Shown here in pieces: positions 17,801 through 24,073 of a DNA stretch of 64,000 nucleotides. Each line of letters begins with the position of its first letter. The stretch's first letter is position 1. The translations under genes and the position numbers were made by a program. The notes beneath the pieces are model-generated. The model was given only the letters and a program-made list of their open reading frames with translations. It had not been told where the DNA came from and searched no databases. This stretch comes from Anaerolineae bacterium (GTDB lineage Bacteria > Chloroflexota > Anaerolineae > UBA3071). The stretch is from contig JARYMM010000009.1 in assembly GCA_029907105.1 (NCBI GenBank), forward strand, positions 9,044-73,043, written 5' to 3'.

Positions 17801-19177
17801 TCAGAACGCATCAGCCCGGATGAGGGTGCCCACTTCCAGGCCAGCATCGCCCAACACGCGGGTCAACAGCCCAACCTCCAGACCCGAGATCAAGCGCACC
17901 TGCAAATAAGGCAACTCCTCCACCAGTGCGCACATCGTCCGCACCTTGGCCAGCATGCCGCCCGTCACGTCCGTGCCCTGAGCGCCGTCCATAAGGGGCG
18001 AGAGCGCGGCCAGCCGCCGCGGGGTGATCTCGGCAATCACCTGAGGCTGACCATTATCAGAGCGCATCACGCCAGGCACCGCCCCGGCCAGCACGAGGCG
18101 GTCGGGCTTCAGCCGCCGGGCCAGCCAGGCGAAAATCTCCTCGGTGGAGACGATGGTGCCGCCGCGCACCTCGTCCAGGGCCACGTCGCCGTAGAGCAGC
18201 GGCACCAGGCCGCGCAGCAACGCTTCGGCAACAGGACGCCAGTCCAGGGCTACCAGTTCCCCATCGCGGCAGCAAGCCGAAGCGGAGGGTTGCAGGCTCC
18301 ACACGGGCACGCCCGCCTGCCAGAAGGCGTCGGCAACCAGGCGGTTGAGCCGCTGGGCAGCCAACGCCGTCTCGGCAAAGCCCCGCCAGCCTGCGGCATC
18401 GCTCACGCCGCAACGGGTGCCGTAGCGCTCCCCGGCCATGTGGCCGAAGGAGCCGCTGCCATGCCCCAGGACCAGCCGCAGCCCAGGGCGAGCGGCCAGG
18501 GCCTCGGCCACCTCCCCCGCCAACCGTCGGATCACCTCCGGCCGCGCCGTTGCCTCCCGCGTCTTGTCCGTGATCAGCGAGCCGCCCAGCTTCAAAAAGA
18601 CCAGCTCTGCGGATTGCGGATTGCGGATTGCGGATTGCGGAATGCGGATTGCGGAATGCGGATTGTGGATTGCGGATTGCGGATTGTGGATTGCGGAATG
18701 CGGATTGTGGATTGCGGGTTGCGGATTGCGGATTGTGAGGTTTGGATTTTGGATTTTGGATTTTGAAGTTGCCCTGATCTCTACCCGCTCGCCGTCCACG
18801 ATCACCCAATCACCCGTATGGATTTGGCTTATGTCAATTTCATCCAGCATGGGGATATCGGCCAGGATGGCCCCTACGGCCACGATGGGTTCGCTCCGGG
18901 CATTGAGCATCGCTGCCGGCGCATGGCCACTGTGCGCCAGGCGCAGGAGGGTGTATGAGCCCACCGTGCTGCCCTTGCCGCCGGGAAAGACCAGGACTCG
19001 TCCGGCGATGCACTGTCCCTCCAGCGGGTGCCCCGGTTCGATGATGACCCCTGTCTCCGGGTCCACGCCGCCCAGGAAGCCGATGGGCTGCGGCGAGACC
19101 AGGGCTTCCCCCTCGGCTCGCCCGGCCCGGATCACCCGACCCACCAGGAGTGCGGAATGGGGGGTGCAGATGGTCAT
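17801..19177 (-). CDS. Fusion: aconitase-X swivel domain (phosphomevalonate dehydratase small subunit type) to isopentenyl phosphate kinase
   Basis: A 458-residue single reading frame. Residues 1-136 are a DUF126/aconitase-X small subunit (SPQPIGFLGGVDPETGVIIE, HPLEGQCIAGRVLVFPGGKGS). Residues about 137-190 are a low-complexity linker encoded by a heptanucleotide tract (repeats of AIHNPQS). Residues 191-458 are isopentenyl phosphate kinase: FLKLGGSLITDK nucleotide loop, GHGSGSFGH, and a C-terminal TDVTGGMLAKV. In the archaeal-type mevalonate route phosphomevalonate dehydratase acts two steps before this kinase, so the fusion joins enzymes of one pathway. The large dehydratase subunit and the decarboxylase are not in the window. 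The start at 19177 overlaps the selA stop (ATGA). No ATG or GTG precedes the kinase domain, supporting true fusion. Hydroxyproline dehydratases share the swivel fold, but the kinase makes that less likely. Confidence 0.82.
   Translation of the reverse strand: MTICTPHSALLVGRVIRAGRAEGEALVSPQPIGFLGGVDPETGVIIEPGHPLEGQCIAGRVLVFPGGKGSTVGSYTLLRLAHSGHAPAAMLNARSEPIVAVGAILADIPMLDEIDISQIHTGDWVIVDGERVEIRATSKSKIQNPNLTIRNPQPAIHNPHSAIHNPQSAIHNPHSAIRIPQSAIRNPQSAELVFLKLGGSLITDKTREATARPEVIRRLAGEVAEALAARPGLRLVLGHGSGSFGHMAGERYGTRCGVSDAAGWRGFAETALAAQRLNRLVADAFWQAGVPVWSLQPSASACCRDGELVALDWRPVAEALLRGLVPLLYGDVALDEVRGGTIVSTEEIFAWLARRLKPDRLVLAGAVPGVMRSDNGQPQVIAEITPRRLAALSPLMDGAQGTDVTGGMLAKVRTMCALVEELPYLQVRLISGLEVGLLTRVLGDAGLEVGTLIRADAF
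18606..18771. repeat. Heptanucleotide tandem tract (GCGGATT type) inside a coding fusion
   Basis: About 23 imperfect units of GCGGATT, GCGGAAT and GTGGATT, then TTGGATT. On the minus strand all three frames are open because the 7-base period cycles through phases; the frame in use encodes the linker between the two enzyme domains. The same unit occurs at 35698-35731 in the start of another gene. Confidence 0.93.
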
Positions 19178-20547
19178 TCCGCTTTCCCCCAGGCGTGGCG
19201 TACGGCGGCCAGCAGCGCCGCATCTTCCTCCGGCAGTACGGTGCGGGGATCGAGCAGCAGGCGGTTCGCCTCGATGCGTCCGATGACCGGCGGCTCCTGC
19301 GCTCGCAGGCGCGCCGCCAGGGCGTCGGGTGAGGCCGGCTCCAGGGCCACGACCACGGTGGGCAGTGTCTGGCCGGGCAAGGAGCCGCCGCCCACGGTGG
19401 AGTGCGCCGCCTGGGTCGAGGCCGGGATACCCATCGCCTGTAATTGAGCTGCCCAGGCTTCGGAGCGAGCGCGCAGGCCATCCAATGGTGCGGCGATCAT
19501 CTGCCAGATGGGGATTTCCGCCACCGCCTCCCCGCGCAGGTAATGCAGCAGCGTGGCCTGCAAGCCTGCCAGCGTGGTTTTGTCCACCCGCAAGGCCCGC
19601 GTCAGCGGGTGCCGTCGCAGCCGCTCCACCAGCGGCTTCTGGCCGACGATGAGGCCCGCCTGGGGGCCGCCCAGCAGCTTGTCGCCGCTGAAGGTGGTGA
19701 GCGCAGCGCCGGCGGCCACGCTCTGCTGCACGGTGGGCTCGGCGGCCAGGCCAAAGGCCGACGTGTCCAGCAGCGTGCCGCTGCCCAGGTCGTTGACCAC
19801 GGGCAGGCTGTGTTGTCGCCCCAGGGCCACCAGCTCGTCCAGCGTCACGTCCTCGCTGAAGCCGAGCACCTGGAAATTGGAGCGGTGCGCCGCCAGCAGC
19901 AGCGCCGTGGCCGGGCCAATGGCCGCCGCGAAATCCCGTCGGTGGGTGCGGTTGGTGCTGCCCACTTCCACCAGCCGGGCGCCGCTCTGCGCCATCACCT
20001 CCGGGATGCGGAAGCCGCCGCCGATCTCGATGAGCTGGCCGCGGGAAATGATGACCTCCCTCCCTCTGGCCAGGGCGGTCAAGGCCAGCAGCACCGCGCC
20101 GGCGTTGTTGTTGACCACCAGGGCGGCCTCGGCTCCGGTCAGCCGGCAAAGCAGTTCCTCGGCATGCACGTAACGGGAGCCGCGCTGCCCTGCTGCCAGG
20201 TCGTACTCCAGGTTGCTGTAGCCCGTGCCCGCTTCCACCATGGCCTGGCGGGCTGCCCGGCTCAGGGGGGCCCGGCCCAGGTTGGTGTGGATGATGACAC
20301 CGGTGGCGTTGATCACCGGCCGCAGCGTGGGGCGGGTCAGGCTTGTCAGCCGCGCCCGTGCCGCAGCGATCAGCGCCTCCGCTGCAGGGCACGGCCGGCC
20401 ACCCAGGATGGCCTCTCGGGCCTCATCCAGGGTCTCGCGCAGGGCCGTCACCGTCAGCGTGTGGCCATAGGCGGCCAAAACCTGGGCCATTTCGGGTTGT
20501 TGCAGCAGGCGGTCCACAGCGGGCAGCTTGCGCAGCTCTTCCTGCAT
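19174..20547 (-). CDS. selA: L-seryl-tRNA(Sec) selenium transferase
   Basis: A 457-residue PLP enzyme that converts Ser-tRNA(Sec) to Sec-tRNA(Sec) with selenophosphate. Family features are clear: N-terminal RKLPAVDRLL, NATGVIIHTNLGRAPLS, SNLEYDLAAGQRGSRY, NNNAGAVLLAL, NDLGSGTLLD, the PLP lysine in TFSGDKLLGGPQAG (about residue 290) and a C-terminal RIEANRLLLDPRT. Length is normal. A GGAGG site lies 6 bases before ATG 20547. No selB, selC or selD is in the window; the gene overlaps the isoprenoid fusion gene, a pairing with no known functional logic. Confidence 0.95.
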   Translation of the reverse strand: MQEELRKLPAVDRLLQQPEMAQVLAAYGHTLTVTALRETLDEAREAILGGRPCPAAEALIAAARARLTSLTRPTLRPVINATGVIIHTNLGRAPLSRAARQAMVEAGTGYSNLEYDLAAGQRGSRYVHAEELLCRLTGAEAALVVNNNAGAVLLALTALARGREVIISRGQLIEIGGGFRIPEVMAQSGARLVEVGSTNRTHRRDFAAAIGPATALLLAAHRSNFQVLGFSEDVTLDELVALGRQHSLPVVNDLGSGTLLDTSAFGLAAEPTVQQSVAAGAALTTFSGDKLLGGPQAGLIVGQKPLVERLRRHPLTRALRVDKTTLAGLQATLLHYLRGEAVAEIPIWQMIAAPLDGLRARSEAWAAQLQAMGIPASTQAAHSTVGGGSLPGQTLPTVVVALEPASPDALAARLRAQEPPVIGRIEANRLLLDPRTVLPEEDAALLAAVRHAWGKAE

Positions 20548-20580
20548 GCCATCCTCCGGACAGGCTAATATACCCTTAAT

Positions 20581-20665
20581 GCCTATCCTAAAAGTCTCAC
20601 CGCTCCCGCTGGACCTTGGTCCAGCGGCGGACTAAGGTCCGCCTTGAGCGGTTTTCAGGATAGGC
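20581..20665. repeat. 85-bp palindromic element with perfect 9-bp ends
   Basis: Ends GCCTATCCT and AGGATAGGC are perfect inverted repeats, extended imperfectly to CCGCTC/GAGCGG. Inside are two stems: CCGCTGGACCTTGGTCCAGCGG and GGCGGACTAAGGTCCGCC. The layout equals that of the 8165 and 17591 elements, but the sequence is different. It lies between selA and the tRNA-Val terminator. Confidence 0.8.
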
Positions 20666-20697
20666 TCTTAAAGGATAAGCCCCCTCCTAAGAAACGA

Positions 20698-20716
20698 GCC
20701 CCCAACGACTGGGGGC
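20698..20716 (-). terminator. Intrinsic terminator of the tRNA-Val gene
   Basis: On the minus strand GCCCCC-AGTCGTT-GGGGGC forms a strong stem followed by TCGTTTCTT. It begins about 15 bases beyond the tRNA 3' end. Confidence 0.75.
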
Positions 20717-20730
20717 CTCAAGGTAACAAG

Positions 20731-21210
20731 TGGGCGAAACAGGACTCGAACCTGTGACCTCTTCCTTGTCTTGCCGCATCGGCTTTCACCGACCACATAC
20801 AATGTGTTGCGGTCTGGACTATATCTTGGCCGTCTCAGGCCCGCTGCTTGCAGTCTCTGAGGCGTCCCGAAAGCTCCTATAGTCCTTATGCCAGTGGACA
20901 CCGACTGTCTGTTGATTCCGAGATGGTGTTATGCGCAAGTGAAGGGCTGCCTTCTGTCCAATCTCGCTCTGAGGCACGTAGTACACCAAGTCGGTATCTG
21001 GACAGTAGAAGCTTTAAGGTTCCCTGCTGGTCACCCATAACTATCCAGGTTGCTTTTCCAGCCCTCATGTCCATCCTCTCGGATCACATTGTGGCGAACC
21101 CGGCTTTAGGGCTTCCCAGCATACAGCAGCGTCCACCGTGCCGGTTCATTTTCCCAGGCACGGGCTCACAAATGTAAGGGAAGCGCTCTAACCTGCTGAG
21201 CTATTCGCCC
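20731..21210 (-). tRNA. tRNA-Val(UAC) interrupted by a group I intron
   Basis: Exon 1 is 21210-21176 (35 nt): GGGCGAA acceptor, GCTC/GAGC D stem, CTTCC anticodon stem, then C-U-U. Exon 2 is 20769-20731 (39 nt): ACAA, GGAAG, variable loop AGGTC, T stem ACAGG/CCTGT with TTCGAGT loop, TTCGCCC and discriminator A. All four stems pair after joining, and the anticodon loop becomes CUUACAA, giving anticodon UAC (Val). CCA is not encoded. The 406-nt insert lies between anticodon bases 34 and 35. A TTGCGT-17-TATAAT promoter (21249-21221) precedes it and an intrinsic terminator follows. Confidence 0.92.
20770..21175 (-). ncRNA. Group I self-splicing intron in tRNA-Val
   Basis: A 406-nt intron. The splice junctions fit group I rules: the 5' exon ends in U and forms a P1 hairpin CUUAC-AUUU-GUGAG, with a U-G pair at the splice site; the intron ends in G. 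The conserved core is visible as R element CCTCAGAGACTGCA and an exact S element AAGATATAGTCC separated by a P8-type hairpin (GGCC-TGAGAC-GGCC). No homing endonuclease frame of convincing length is present. Position 34/35 is the same as in the cyanobacterial tRNA-Leu(UAA) intron, which is of subgroup IC3; subgroup here is inferred. Confidence 0.92.
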
Positions 21211-21220
21211 ACACACTGAC

Positions 21221-21249
21221 ATTATACCGGCAGACCAGACCAGACGCAA
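21221..21249 (-). promoter_or_regulatory. Promoter of the tRNA-Val gene
   Basis: Reading the minus strand, TTGCGT (21249-21244), a 17-base spacer and a perfect TATAAT (21226-21221) place the start of transcription just before the tRNA 5' end at 21210. Confidence 0.65.
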
Positions 21250-21282
21250 ATGCGGCTATGCCCATCGCCCTCGAGGGGATGC

Positions 21283-21867
21283 CTACCTGCTGTATGTCCC
21301 CATCAGCTCCGCCTGGGCCAGGATGTGCCCCTCCATGGCCTTGAGGAGCTGCCCCTTGTCCGCTCCGGCCTTCAGGTCCAGCACCGTGTCCAGGGCATAC
21401 AACTTGAAGAAGTAGCGATGGGTGCCACGCGGCGGACAGGGGCCGCCGTAGCCCAGCCGCCGCCAACTGTTCCGCCCGTGCCGGCTGCCATCGGCCAGCT
21501 CGGCATCCGAGGAGACGGCTTCCGGCAGGCCGCGACTTGTGGCGGGCAGGTTGTAGAGCACCCAGTGGACCCAGGTACCCGCCGGCGCATCGGGGTCGTC
21601 GGCGATGAGGGCCAGACTGCGCGTGCCCGCCGGTGGGTCACCCCAGGAAAGCGGCGGCGAGATGTCCTGGCCGTCGCAGGTGTACTTACGGGGGATCGGC
21701 TTCCCCTGAACAAAGGCTGTGCTCGTCAGTTCAAAAGCCATCGCTTGCTCTCCTTTCTCCGGCAACGTCGCCGGAACTGCCGTGGGTGGCGCTGCGCGCT
21801 GACACCCCCCCACCATCAGCCCACACAGCAAGAACAACAGCCAGATACATCGCTTCGGCCCGATCAT
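21283..21867 (-). CDS. YbhB/YbcL-type PEBP-family lipoprotein
   Basis: A 194-residue phosphatidylethanolamine-binding/Raf-kinase-inhibitor-like protein. An N-terminal signal (CIWLLFLLCGLMVGGC) ends in a lipobox Cys, so it is probably anchored on the outer face of the membrane. Core motifs: GKPIPRKYTCDGQDISPPLSW, IADDPDAPAGTWVHWVLYNLP, GYGGPCPPRGTHRYFFKLYALD. Known YbhB proteins bind small ligands and their role is unsettled. ATG at 21867 is chosen because it starts the signal peptide; it lies 2 bases after the ftsK stop. Confidence 0.9.
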   Translation of the reverse strand: MIGPKRCIWLLFLLCGLMVGGCQRAAPPTAVPATLPEKGEQAMAFELTSTAFVQGKPIPRKYTCDGQDISPPLSWGDPPAGTRSLALIADDPDAPAGTWVHWVLYNLPATSRGLPEAVSSDAELADGSRHGRNSWRRLGYGGPCPPRGTHRYFFKLYALDTVLDLKAGADKGQLLKAMEGHILAQAELMGTYSR

Positions 21868-21868
21868 G

Positions 21869-24073
21869 CTACCACTCCTCCTCGTCGGCGTTGTCCACCC
21901 CCTCTCCCCGCAGGACTTCGCGCCCGCGGCCGCCGCCCTCGTCAGGGCCGACAATGCCCTCCTCCTCCAGGATTTCCATCAGCCGCGCCGCCCGCGGGAA
22001 GCCGATGCGCAGCTTGCGCTGCAGGAAGGAGGTGGAGACCCGATCGTAGTCCCGGACGAGGGCCACAGCCTGGTCAAACAGTTCATCTTCTTGAGCCGCC
22101 CCTTCCAGCAGCCCCTCCCAGGGATAGGCTCCCTCGTCCGAGGGTTGGGGCCCGCCTTGCCGCCGCCAGAAGTTGACCAGCGCCTGGGTCTCCCGGCCGG
22201 TGACAAAGCAGCCCTGCGCCCGCACCAGGCCGCTGGCTTCGGGCGACATGAAGAGCATATCGCCGCGGCCCAGCAACTGCTCCGCCCCCGCCTGATCCAG
22301 GATCACCCGGCTGTCCACCTGCGAGGTGACGGTGAAGGCGATGCGGGCAGGGAAATTGGCCTTGATCAACCCGGTGACCACGTCCACGCTGGGCCGCTGC
22401 GTGGCGACGACCAGGTGAATGCCCGTGGCGCGGGACATCTGCGCCAGGCGGCAGACGCTGCGCTCCACCTCATCGGGGGCGACCATCATCATGTCCGCCA
22501 GCTCGTCTATGACCAAGACGATGTGCGGCAACGGCTCGTAGCGGGTCTGAGACCCGCCCCTGCGCCGCCTGGCCAGCCGGTTGTAATCGTCAATGTTGCG
22601 CGCCTGCACGGCGTGAAACTGCCGGTAGCGCTCGTCCATCTGCAGGGTGAGCCAGGTCAGCGCCCCGACGGCCTGTTCCAGCTCCACCACCACGGGGGCC
22701 AGCAGATGGGGGATGCCGTTGTACACGGGCAACTCCACCATCTTGGGGTCCATCAGCAGCAGGCGCAGCGTTTCCGGGGTGTTGTGGAAGAGCAGACAGG
22801 TGATGATGGCGTTGATGCACACCGACTTGCCCGAGCCGGTGGCCCCGGCGATGAGCAGGTGGGGCATGGCGGCCAGATCGGCCACCACCGGCTCGCCGGA
22901 GACGTTGCGGCCCAACGCGATGGCCAGGTTCGACCTGGCCGCCAGGCGGCGGAATTCCGGCGATTCCAGCACGCCGCGCAGGGCCACCAGGGCCACCCGG
23001 TCATTGGGCACCTCGATGCCTACGTAGGGGTAGCCCGGCACCGGAGCCTCGATGCGGATGGGCGAAGCGGCCAGGGCCAGGGCCAGGTCGTTGGACAGAC
23101 GCAGGATGCGCTGCACGGACACCTTACGGTCGTAGACCGTGCCATCGGCCCGGCGGTGCGGCACCGTCAGCGGCTGCACGGCAAACTGGGTCACCGTGGG
23201 CCCCTGTTTCACGTCCACCACCCGCACGGGCACGCCGAACTCGCTGAGCGTTTGCTCGATGACCTGCGACTTGTAATCGGCGTTGGTGTCGCCGAATTCC
23301 TCGCTGCGGTCCACGTGCAGCAGGTCCAGCGGCGGCAGGCGATCGTCGGCCGGCCGCTCCGGCAGCGGACGCTCGGCCTTCGGCCGGGGCTCCTTTTTCT
23401 TGACAGCCCGGCGAGGCGGGGCAGGTGGTGGAACGGCAACTGCTGCCCGAGTGGGCTCTACTTCCTCAAGTGCTCCCCTGCCCCCCTGCTCCCCTGCTCT
23501 CCCTTGCCCGGCCGCCACGAGCATTCGCAGACCTTCCCGCCAGCCCAGAGGCGCCCAGCGGTACATCATCCACAAGCCCAGGGCGACGAATAGAAGCAGC
23601 AGCAACCGCCCCAGGAGCGGGCCCAGCCACTGCCCCAGGAACATGCTGATGACCCACCCCACCAGGCCGCCGCCGCGCCCCTGCTCGGCCCAGGCCAGGG
23701 CCTTCTCGCCGTCGCCCCAGCGATGCGTCAGGGCCAGCAGGGCCACGAGGAAGACCTCCAGGCCGACCAGGGCTTCCCAGCGCCCGGCGAAGCGCAGCCG
23801 CTCGCCGGCCAGCACGATGACAGCCGCGGCCCACAGCAGCAGCGCCAGCGGGTAGGCTCCCCAGCCCAACAGCCGCCGCGAAAGAGGCACCCAGGAGGCG
23901 TTGGCCAGGAGCAGGTCCACAACCAGCAAAACGCCGAGCAGCAGGATGATGTAGGGGCGGGTCTGCGACCCGCCCTCGCGCCCCTGAATCCACGCCAGCC
24001 AGGGCGGAAGGCCGGCCCGTGCAGGCTTACCCTTCGACGGCTTGCGCTCTCTCCGACTACGCTGCACGCTCAT
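21869..24073 (-). CDS. ftsK: FtsK/SpoIIIE DNA translocase
   Basis: A 734-residue DNA pump that clears chromosomes from the division septum. Four hydrophobic segments occupy the N-terminal 170 residues, then a Pro/Lys-rich linker, an alpha domain (RVVDVKQGPTVTQFAVQP) and the RecA-like motor with Walker A GATGSGKSV, Walker B HIVLVIDELADMMM and a conserved ATQRPSVDVVTGLIKANFPARIAF. The C-terminal gamma domain (YDRVSTSFLQRKLRIGFPRAARLME) reads KOPS-like guide sites. The short linker matches Gram-positive SpoIIIE rather than E. coli FtsK. ATG at 24073 is preferred; an in-frame GTG at 24091 is possible. Confidence 0.95.
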   Translation of the reverse strand: MSVQRSRRERKPSKGKPARAGLPPWLAWIQGREGGSQTRPYIILLLGVLLVVDLLLANASWVPLSRRLLGWGAYPLALLLWAAAVIVLAGERLRFAGRWEALVGLEVFLVALLALTHRWGDGEKALAWAEQGRGGGLVGWVISMFLGQWLGPLLGRLLLLLFVALGLWMMYRWAPLGWREGLRMLVAAGQGRAGEQGGRGALEEVEPTRAAVAVPPPAPPRRAVKKKEPRPKAERPLPERPADDRLPPLDLLHVDRSEEFGDTNADYKSQVIEQTLSEFGVPVRVVDVKQGPTVTQFAVQPLTVPHRRADGTVYDRKVSVQRILRLSNDLALALAASPIRIEAPVPGYPYVGIEVPNDRVALVALRGVLESPEFRRLAARSNLAIALGRNVSGEPVVADLAAMPHLLIAGATGSGKSVCINAIITCLLFHNTPETLRLLLMDPKMVELPVYNGIPHLLAPVVVELEQAVGALTWLTLQMDERYRQFHAVQARNIDDYNRLARRRRGGSQTRYEPLPHIVLVIDELADMMMVAPDEVERSVCRLAQMSRATGIHLVVATQRPSVDVVTGLIKANFPARIAFTVTSQVDSRVILDQAGAEQLLGRGDMLFMSPEASGLVRAQGCFVTGRETQALVNFWRRQGGPQPSDEGAYPWEGLLEGAAQEDELFDQAVALVRDYDRVSTSFLQRKLRIGFPRAARLMEILEEEGIVGPDEGGGRGREVLRGEGVDNADEEEW

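Follow-up and report, generated by a model that had tools for sequence, protein, structure and literature searches.

A predicted group I intron splitting the anticodon of the sole tRNA-Val(UAC) gene found in a member of the Chloroflexota

Introduction

How could a bacterium produce tRNA-Val(UAC) when the only gene found for it is split inside the anticodon? The question is raised by a locus of an Anaerolineae bacterium (Chloroflexota), situated in a 64,000-nt stretch of contig JARYMM010000009.1, the whole of which we call the window. With a probability of about 0.93, we conclude that the insert is a group I intron lying between wobble base U34 and A35 of the sole tRNA-Val(UAC) gene found in this genome.

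Bacterial tRNA introns are usually described from few tRNAs. Reviews cover the Leu(UAA) and fMet introns of cyanobacteria and proteobacterial tRNA introns (PMC3984707, PMC4033280), and the authors of tRNAscan-SE add Ile(CAU) cases, stating that their program was not designed for such introns (PMC8450103). Group I introns occur in Arg(UCU) and Leu(UAA) tRNAs of giant sulfur bacteria (BOGUAY, Thiomargarita; PMC4853749), tRNAs with group I introns are mentioned without detail for circularized CPR and Chloroflexi genomes (PMC8172020), and Anaerolineae hold nearly all of the tmRNA introns at one T-loop subsite (PMC11915505). The 'group I introns' of 22–49 nt in cyanobacterial tRNAs (PMC5733544) are too short for group I and were not taken as a precedent. 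The original prediction, made by reading this DNA, stated that no well-studied case is known in bacterial tRNA-Val(UAC), and in the open papers that we searched we likewise found no group I intron reported for a bacterial tRNA-Val; since subscription papers or the 2025 intron database (PMC11835236) could hold entries, priority is not claimed.

The split tRNA-Val(UAC) gene

The two exons (Table 1) join to a 74-nt sequence that ARAGORN folds and types as tRNA-Val(UAC). When introns are allowed, the program also calls the gene on the unspliced window, with an intron of 406 nt, and both runs agree with the tRNA that had originally been rebuilt from 21210–21176 and 20769–20731. The exons are fully paired. 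A default ARAGORN scan without introns calls zero tRNAs in the window. Owing to an ACA direct repeat, the junction could be shifted by up to 3 nt, all placements giving an identical tRNA; we place it at 34/35 because the U·G pair, the terminal G and P10 (see below) all pick this position. No full sigma-70 promoter match was found upstream of the gene.

Table 1. Features of the tRNA-Val(UAC) locus in window coordinates
Feature	Position	Strand	Basis or remark
selA, conserved neighbour marking the orthologous locus	19174–20547	-	PF03841, E 1.8e-140
Intrinsic-terminator-like hairpin 3' of the tRNA	20697–20717	-	Weak: 0.7 expected by chance
3' exon of tRNA-Val(UAC), 39 nt, starts at A35, CCA not encoded	20731–20769	-	ARAGORN; intronless orthologues
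Predicted group I intron, 406 nt, U34/A35, last base G (20770)	20770–21175	-	ARAGORN; L081 orthologue of 275 nt; full-length Intron_gpI alignment
P9 region: stem CCGCA/UGCGG around two hairpins, the second with a GAAA loop (20792–20779)	20774–20812	-	
S element AAGAUAUAGUCC with P7 3' strand (20821–20817)	20816–20827	-	Sequence; P7 pairing
P8 hairpin GGCC-UGAGAC-GGCC	20828–20841	-	4/4 pairs changed on both sides among relatives
P3 3' strand GCAGCG	20842–20847	-	P3 pairing test
R element CAGAGACUGCA with P7 5' strand (20855–20851)	20849–20859	-	P7 pairing across introns
PD-(D/E)XK homing endonuclease remnant, C-terminal third, P6 loop	20876–21010	-	PF11645; absent from L081
P4: 21121–21116/21030–21025	within 21025–21121	-	
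P5: 21112–21109/21036–21033	within 21025–21121	-	
P5a of the extended P5 arm	21103–21097/21051–21045	-	Compensatory differences between the two Val introns
P5 tip hairpin AUCC-GAGA-GGAU	21084–21073	-	Compensatory differences between the two Val introns
P3 5' strand CGCUGC, partner 20847–20842	21126–21131	-	114/114 cells paired
P2: CCGUGCC/GGCACGG	21136–21163	-	Paired in both Val introns, sequences differ
P1: CUUAC 21178–21174/GUGAG 21169–21165, U·G at 5' splice site	21165–21178	-	
Internal guide UGUGAG	21170–21165	-	Its UGU can pair with 3' exon ACA (P10)
5' exon of tRNA-Val(UAC), 35 nt, nt 1–34, ends C32-U33-U34	21176–21210	-	ARAGORN, spliced and unspliced; intronless orthologues
TATAAT, possible -10 box, 10 nt upstream of the tRNA	21221–21226	-	Seen in sequence

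Empty sites and a second intron-bearing gene

We searched 298 genomes of the class with the spliced tRNA and obtained full-length intronless matches in many of them, with identities of up to 97%. The intronless tRNA-Val lies directly upstream of selA in 8 of 30 loci read, as in the window, and these orthologues equal the predicted spliced product except for a few substitutions. Compared with these orthologues, the window's gene carries an insertion precisely where the junction was predicted.

The gene order at this locus is ftsK–PEBP–tRNA-Val–selA (window 19174–21954), and the tRNA-Val/selA pair is kept in several families of the class. A tRNA-Sec match is present in the window's genome (71.4 bits, G000:C53:22939-23033), and selA is therefore probably in use. 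Near-identical short repeats at about 18660–18760 of the window, reading as repeated NPQSAIHNPQSAI in one frame (from the list of open reading frames only), directly precede a kinase-like frame that comes after selA.

We scanned 84,980 species genomes for a pattern made up of the S element, G-ACA and the T arm in this order. Nine matches resulted, eight due to chance and one real; because the S element had to be exact, divergent Val introns would go unseen. The real match, L081, belongs to Chloroflexi bacterium Bse_26, in which tRNA-Val(UAC) carries a 275-nt intron at the same site and likewise lies directly upstream of selA. Its sequence is that of an Intron_gpI match at G294:C70:23594-23854, the contig place at which the covariance model described below also has a match. 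A search of related genomes for the same intron had been suggested with the original prediction, and it is this copy that was found. The two introns are identical at 216 of 271 aligned bases and their exons at 66 of 74, and the differences in P2, P5a, the P5 tip hairpin, P8 and P9 preserve pairing.

Intronless members of L081's own family (f15) share the locus, so the presence of the intron is sporadic. Within the window's family, a DNA search returned only the window itself plus other tRNAs, and the single sister genome (G001, 73% complete) yielded no tRNA-Val(UAC), with or without an intron. Pattern matches in viral contigs were rejected as they are not tRNAs, and phage and plasmid collections gave no match.

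An intact second tRNA-Val(UAC), which the original prediction regarded as a sign that this copy is decaying, was not found in the window's genome, a draft of 133 contigs that is 92.7% complete and from which an intronless copy could therefore be missing. The other valine tRNAs found there are Val(GAC) and Val(CAC). No other tRNA-Val(UAC) was found in the draft genome of L081 either. By standard decoding rules, the GUA codon needs a UAC tRNA. Since a second Val(UAC) was found in neither genome and GUA has to be decoded, splicing of the intron should be essential in both, with a reservation for their draft status.

Structure of the intron

The insert has a P3-P7-P8 core with R and S elements, a U·G pair in P1, a terminal G and a P10 pairing, all of them features of group I introns. 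The U-G pair at the 5' splice site and the final G were correctly foreseen (U34·G, G at 20770), and the S element AAGATATAGTCC at 20827–20816 and the R element CAGAGACTGCA at 20859–20849 are where they had been claimed to be. P1 contains three exon base pairs only, and the introns of relatives are alike in this respect. The IC3 picture is a compact one; the extended P5 arm of the window's intron, with its GAGA loop and A-rich stretch, is unlike it.

We built a covariance model from the two Val introns, comprising P6 to P9 and nine exon bases. With this model, related introns were detected in 37 of the 396 genomes of the class; the rest of the phylum yielded few. Among 57 aligned matches, 92.2% of P6–P9 cells are paired (29–40% when slid) and 27 of 32 pairs are changed on both sides, figures that lean towards structure because the alignment was fitted to the model. 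P7 is paired in 97.8% of cells across 55 distinct introns and, like P8, includes pairs in which both sides have changed. P3, which lay outside the model, is paired in every one of 114 cells from 19 related introns with 13 distinct 5' strands, and the guide fits the host's 3' exon (P10) in 43 of 63 pairs, as against 30.4 after shuffling; 0 of 5000 shuffles were as high in either test, although these shuffle figures overstate significance since the rows are related. The P10 of the window's intron, UGU/ACA, forms 3/3 pairs, and the fit is full in both Val introns. In Lys(UUU) introns, one of the three bases fits.

The Rfam model Intron_gpI (RF00028) aligns with the window's intron from end to end, at 15.7 bits and thus below the gathering score of 50, which is a detection cut-off and not a defining feature of group I introns. 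An Rfam scan of the window at the gathering score found nothing. The low score is probably due to an insert of about 130 nt in P6; the L081 orthologue, which is without it, reaches 44.6 bits (E 9e-10), also below 50. A missing Intron_gpI hit had been named as evidence against an intron. With a weak score in the window and a higher one in the orthologue, such a reading would be misleading here.

An endonuclease remnant in P6

The original prediction was right to describe the 406-nt insert as a group I intron, but it missed that the insert is more than intron core: about 130 nt of it (21010–20876) are a homing-endonuclease remnant. This part matches PF11645 (PDDEXK_5) with 32 bits (curated cut-off 26.1; E 1.5e-7) over profile positions 91–136 of 138 and is surrounded by an open stop-to-stop frame at 21013–20822 on the minus strand. 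It is without profile positions 1–90, a start, the catalytic half or an upstream frame. Because positions 1–90 are missing, the endonuclease should be inactive, and with only its C-terminal third left the intron should no longer be mobile by itself.

Complete or near-complete copies of PF11645 are found in introns of Arg(UCU), Ser(UGA) and Lys(CUU) tRNAs (129.9, 75.5 and 69.2 bits, respectively), and reading of the Arg(UCU) sequence places the endonuclease in the same P6 loop. One Arg intron has an endonuclease with an internal deletion (L133), another apparently keeps only the C-terminal end (L134), and the L081 intron has no endonuclease gene. From intact to absent, the endonucleases of these related introns form a decay series.

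PD-(D/E)XK genes, ranging from intact ones to C-terminal pieces, are present in tRNA introns L132, L133, L134, L119, L121, L126 and L135, and C-terminal parts remain in frame in about three introns. Two long tRNA-Leu(UAA) introns, L141 (684 nt) and L144 (739 nt), encode a protein that by appearance is HNH-like.

Related introns in other tRNAs

Intron_gpI matches occur in 82 of 396 genomes of the class (loci L045–L149), and many of the loci read are tRNA anticodon loops, of about nine isoacceptors. Hosts were assigned by the U/G boundary rule; ARAGORN host calls for split tRNAs were often wrong (Thr for Asn, Ser for Arg, and Leu, Ser or Arg for CAU) and were corrected. In this class, introns follow U34 in Val(UAC), Arg(UCU), Ser(UGA), Lys(UUU), Leu(UAA) and one uncertain Pro tRNA, U35 in Lys(CUU), Asn(GUU) and Tyr(GUA), and U33 in CAU tRNAs. 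For the Lys(UUU) introns, the rule also permits Asn(GUU) with a 33/34 site, and we chose Lys because these introns resemble the others at 34/35.

The window's genome contains a second group I intron (L041, G000:C89:53902-54183), which is 366 nt long and follows U35 (35/36) of tRNA-Asn(GUU), again the sole gene found there for its tRNA. It scores 52.5 bits with Intron_gpI and has a short, weak LAGLIDADG-like start (14.5 bits, E 0.043).

In a tree of the intron core, the two Val introns are sisters (100/97) and fall into a set of 13 (96/94) together with introns of Lys(UUU), Lys(CUU), Arg(UCU), Ser(UGA) and the uncertain Pro, most Leu introns being outside. As the alignment is short (129 columns) and its rows were picked with a Val-derived model, the tree favours, and does not prove, an origin of the Val intron among the Arg/Lys/Ser introns. 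We see about an even chance that one intron lineage of the class moved among tRNAs that share the 5' exon end U33-U34. It would occupy the 34/35 site of Val(UAC), Arg(UCU), Ser(UGA), Lys(UUU) and Leu(UAA) tRNAs at the least and have close kin at 35/36 in Lys(CUU); the three P10 guide bases would have been re-tuned in several hosts, so that few changes would switch the tRNA.

Alternative explanations

The truncated endonuclease and the low Rfam score might also be expected of a group I intron that has decayed, lost its splicing and left a dead tRNA gene, particularly as a draft genome could hide another Val(UAC) copy. However, the core helices, R, S, the U·G pair, the terminal G and P10 are all intact and match an independent orthologue, the fully paired exons are nearly identical to intronless orthologues, and the gene is the sole Val(UAC) found in two genomes. 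Moreover, it is well established that the ribozyme of a group I intron is unharmed when the endonuclease is lost. We therefore regard decay as very improbable. An assembly chimera, or some other insertion that is not an intron of the tRNA-Val gene, has to be considered for a single draft assembly of metagenome type, but L081 independently has the same insert at the same base, the helices of the two copies covary, and in both genomes the surrounding sequence is that of the conserved tRNA-Val/selA locus, which leaves this explanation a negligible probability.

A different matter, which concerns origin only and is compatible with a group I intron in tRNA-Val, is whether the Val intron arose, as had been proposed, by direct transfer of a tRNA-Leu(UAA) intron to the equivalent site of a new tRNA. 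The two share the 34/35 site, the 5' exon end CUU and the GAG guide, and trees joining Val to smaller Leu groups are not rejected (p-AU 0.09–0.15). On the other hand, the free tree groups Val with Lys, Arg(UCU) and Ser(UGA), a clade of Val with all Leu introns is rejected (p-AU 0.012), and the PD-(D/E)XK gene is one that Val shares with introns of Arg, Ser and Lys tRNAs; in the Leu introns, the two long ones that bear an open reading frame hold the HNH-looking protein instead. The proposal fits in the kind of event, a move to a new tRNA at the same position, while tRNA-Leu(UAA) is not favoured as the donor, and direct descent from the Leu intron seems to us rather unlikely.

Proposed splicing and history

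For the group I intron in tRNA-Val(UAC), we propose the following course. Once transcribed, the intron would fold on P3–P8, and the CUU at the end of the 5' exon would pair with GAG of the internal guide to form P1, with U·G at the cut. Exogenous guanosine would cut after U34, the guide's UGU would align the ACA of the 3' exon in P10, and ligation of U34 to A35, behind the terminal G, would yield a normal tRNA-Val. Formerly the intron carried in P6 a PD-(D/E)XK homing endonuclease, a type of enzyme by which introns are copied into unoccupied sites, and it has probably been retained because precise loss is rare. The Val intron is one member of a set that occupies the anticodon loops of several tRNAs in the class.

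Discussion

Our analysis adds tRNA-Val(UAC) as a new host of an element whose kind is known; more interesting is how widely such introns have spread through anticodon loops, and the Val introns belong to a little-described intron family spread among several tRNA genes of the class. A tRNA that should be essential is missed here by tRNA finders without an intron option, and its intron is missed at the standard Rfam cut-off. Related introns with intact, shrinking and absent endonucleases, and with guides fitting several hosts, make a change of host gene testable, and the same set allows one to test what retains introns after loss of mobility.

The Val intron resembles the cyanobacterial and plastid Leu(UAA) introns, the cyanobacterial fMet introns and the proteobacterial introns, including those of Ile(CAU), in its group I core, its anticodon-loop site and its small size, and its 34/35 site is that of the Leu(UAA) introns read in this class. 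It differs from the known bacterial tRNA introns in its host, tRNA-Val(UAC), its extended P5 arm and its kin in Arg(UCU), Lys and Ser(UGA) tRNAs of the class. Arg(UCU), a host in the giant sulfur bacteria (PMC4853749), is also the commonest host among the close kin described here, a likeness by host tRNA alone; those introns are from a different phylum and host and were published without structure or subgroup. The remnant in the window and the intact reading frames of related introns belong to the same Pfam family (PF11645) as the I-Ssp6803I-type PD-(D/E)XK homing endonuclease (PMC3943268), from which the window's copy differs in being without profile positions 1–90.
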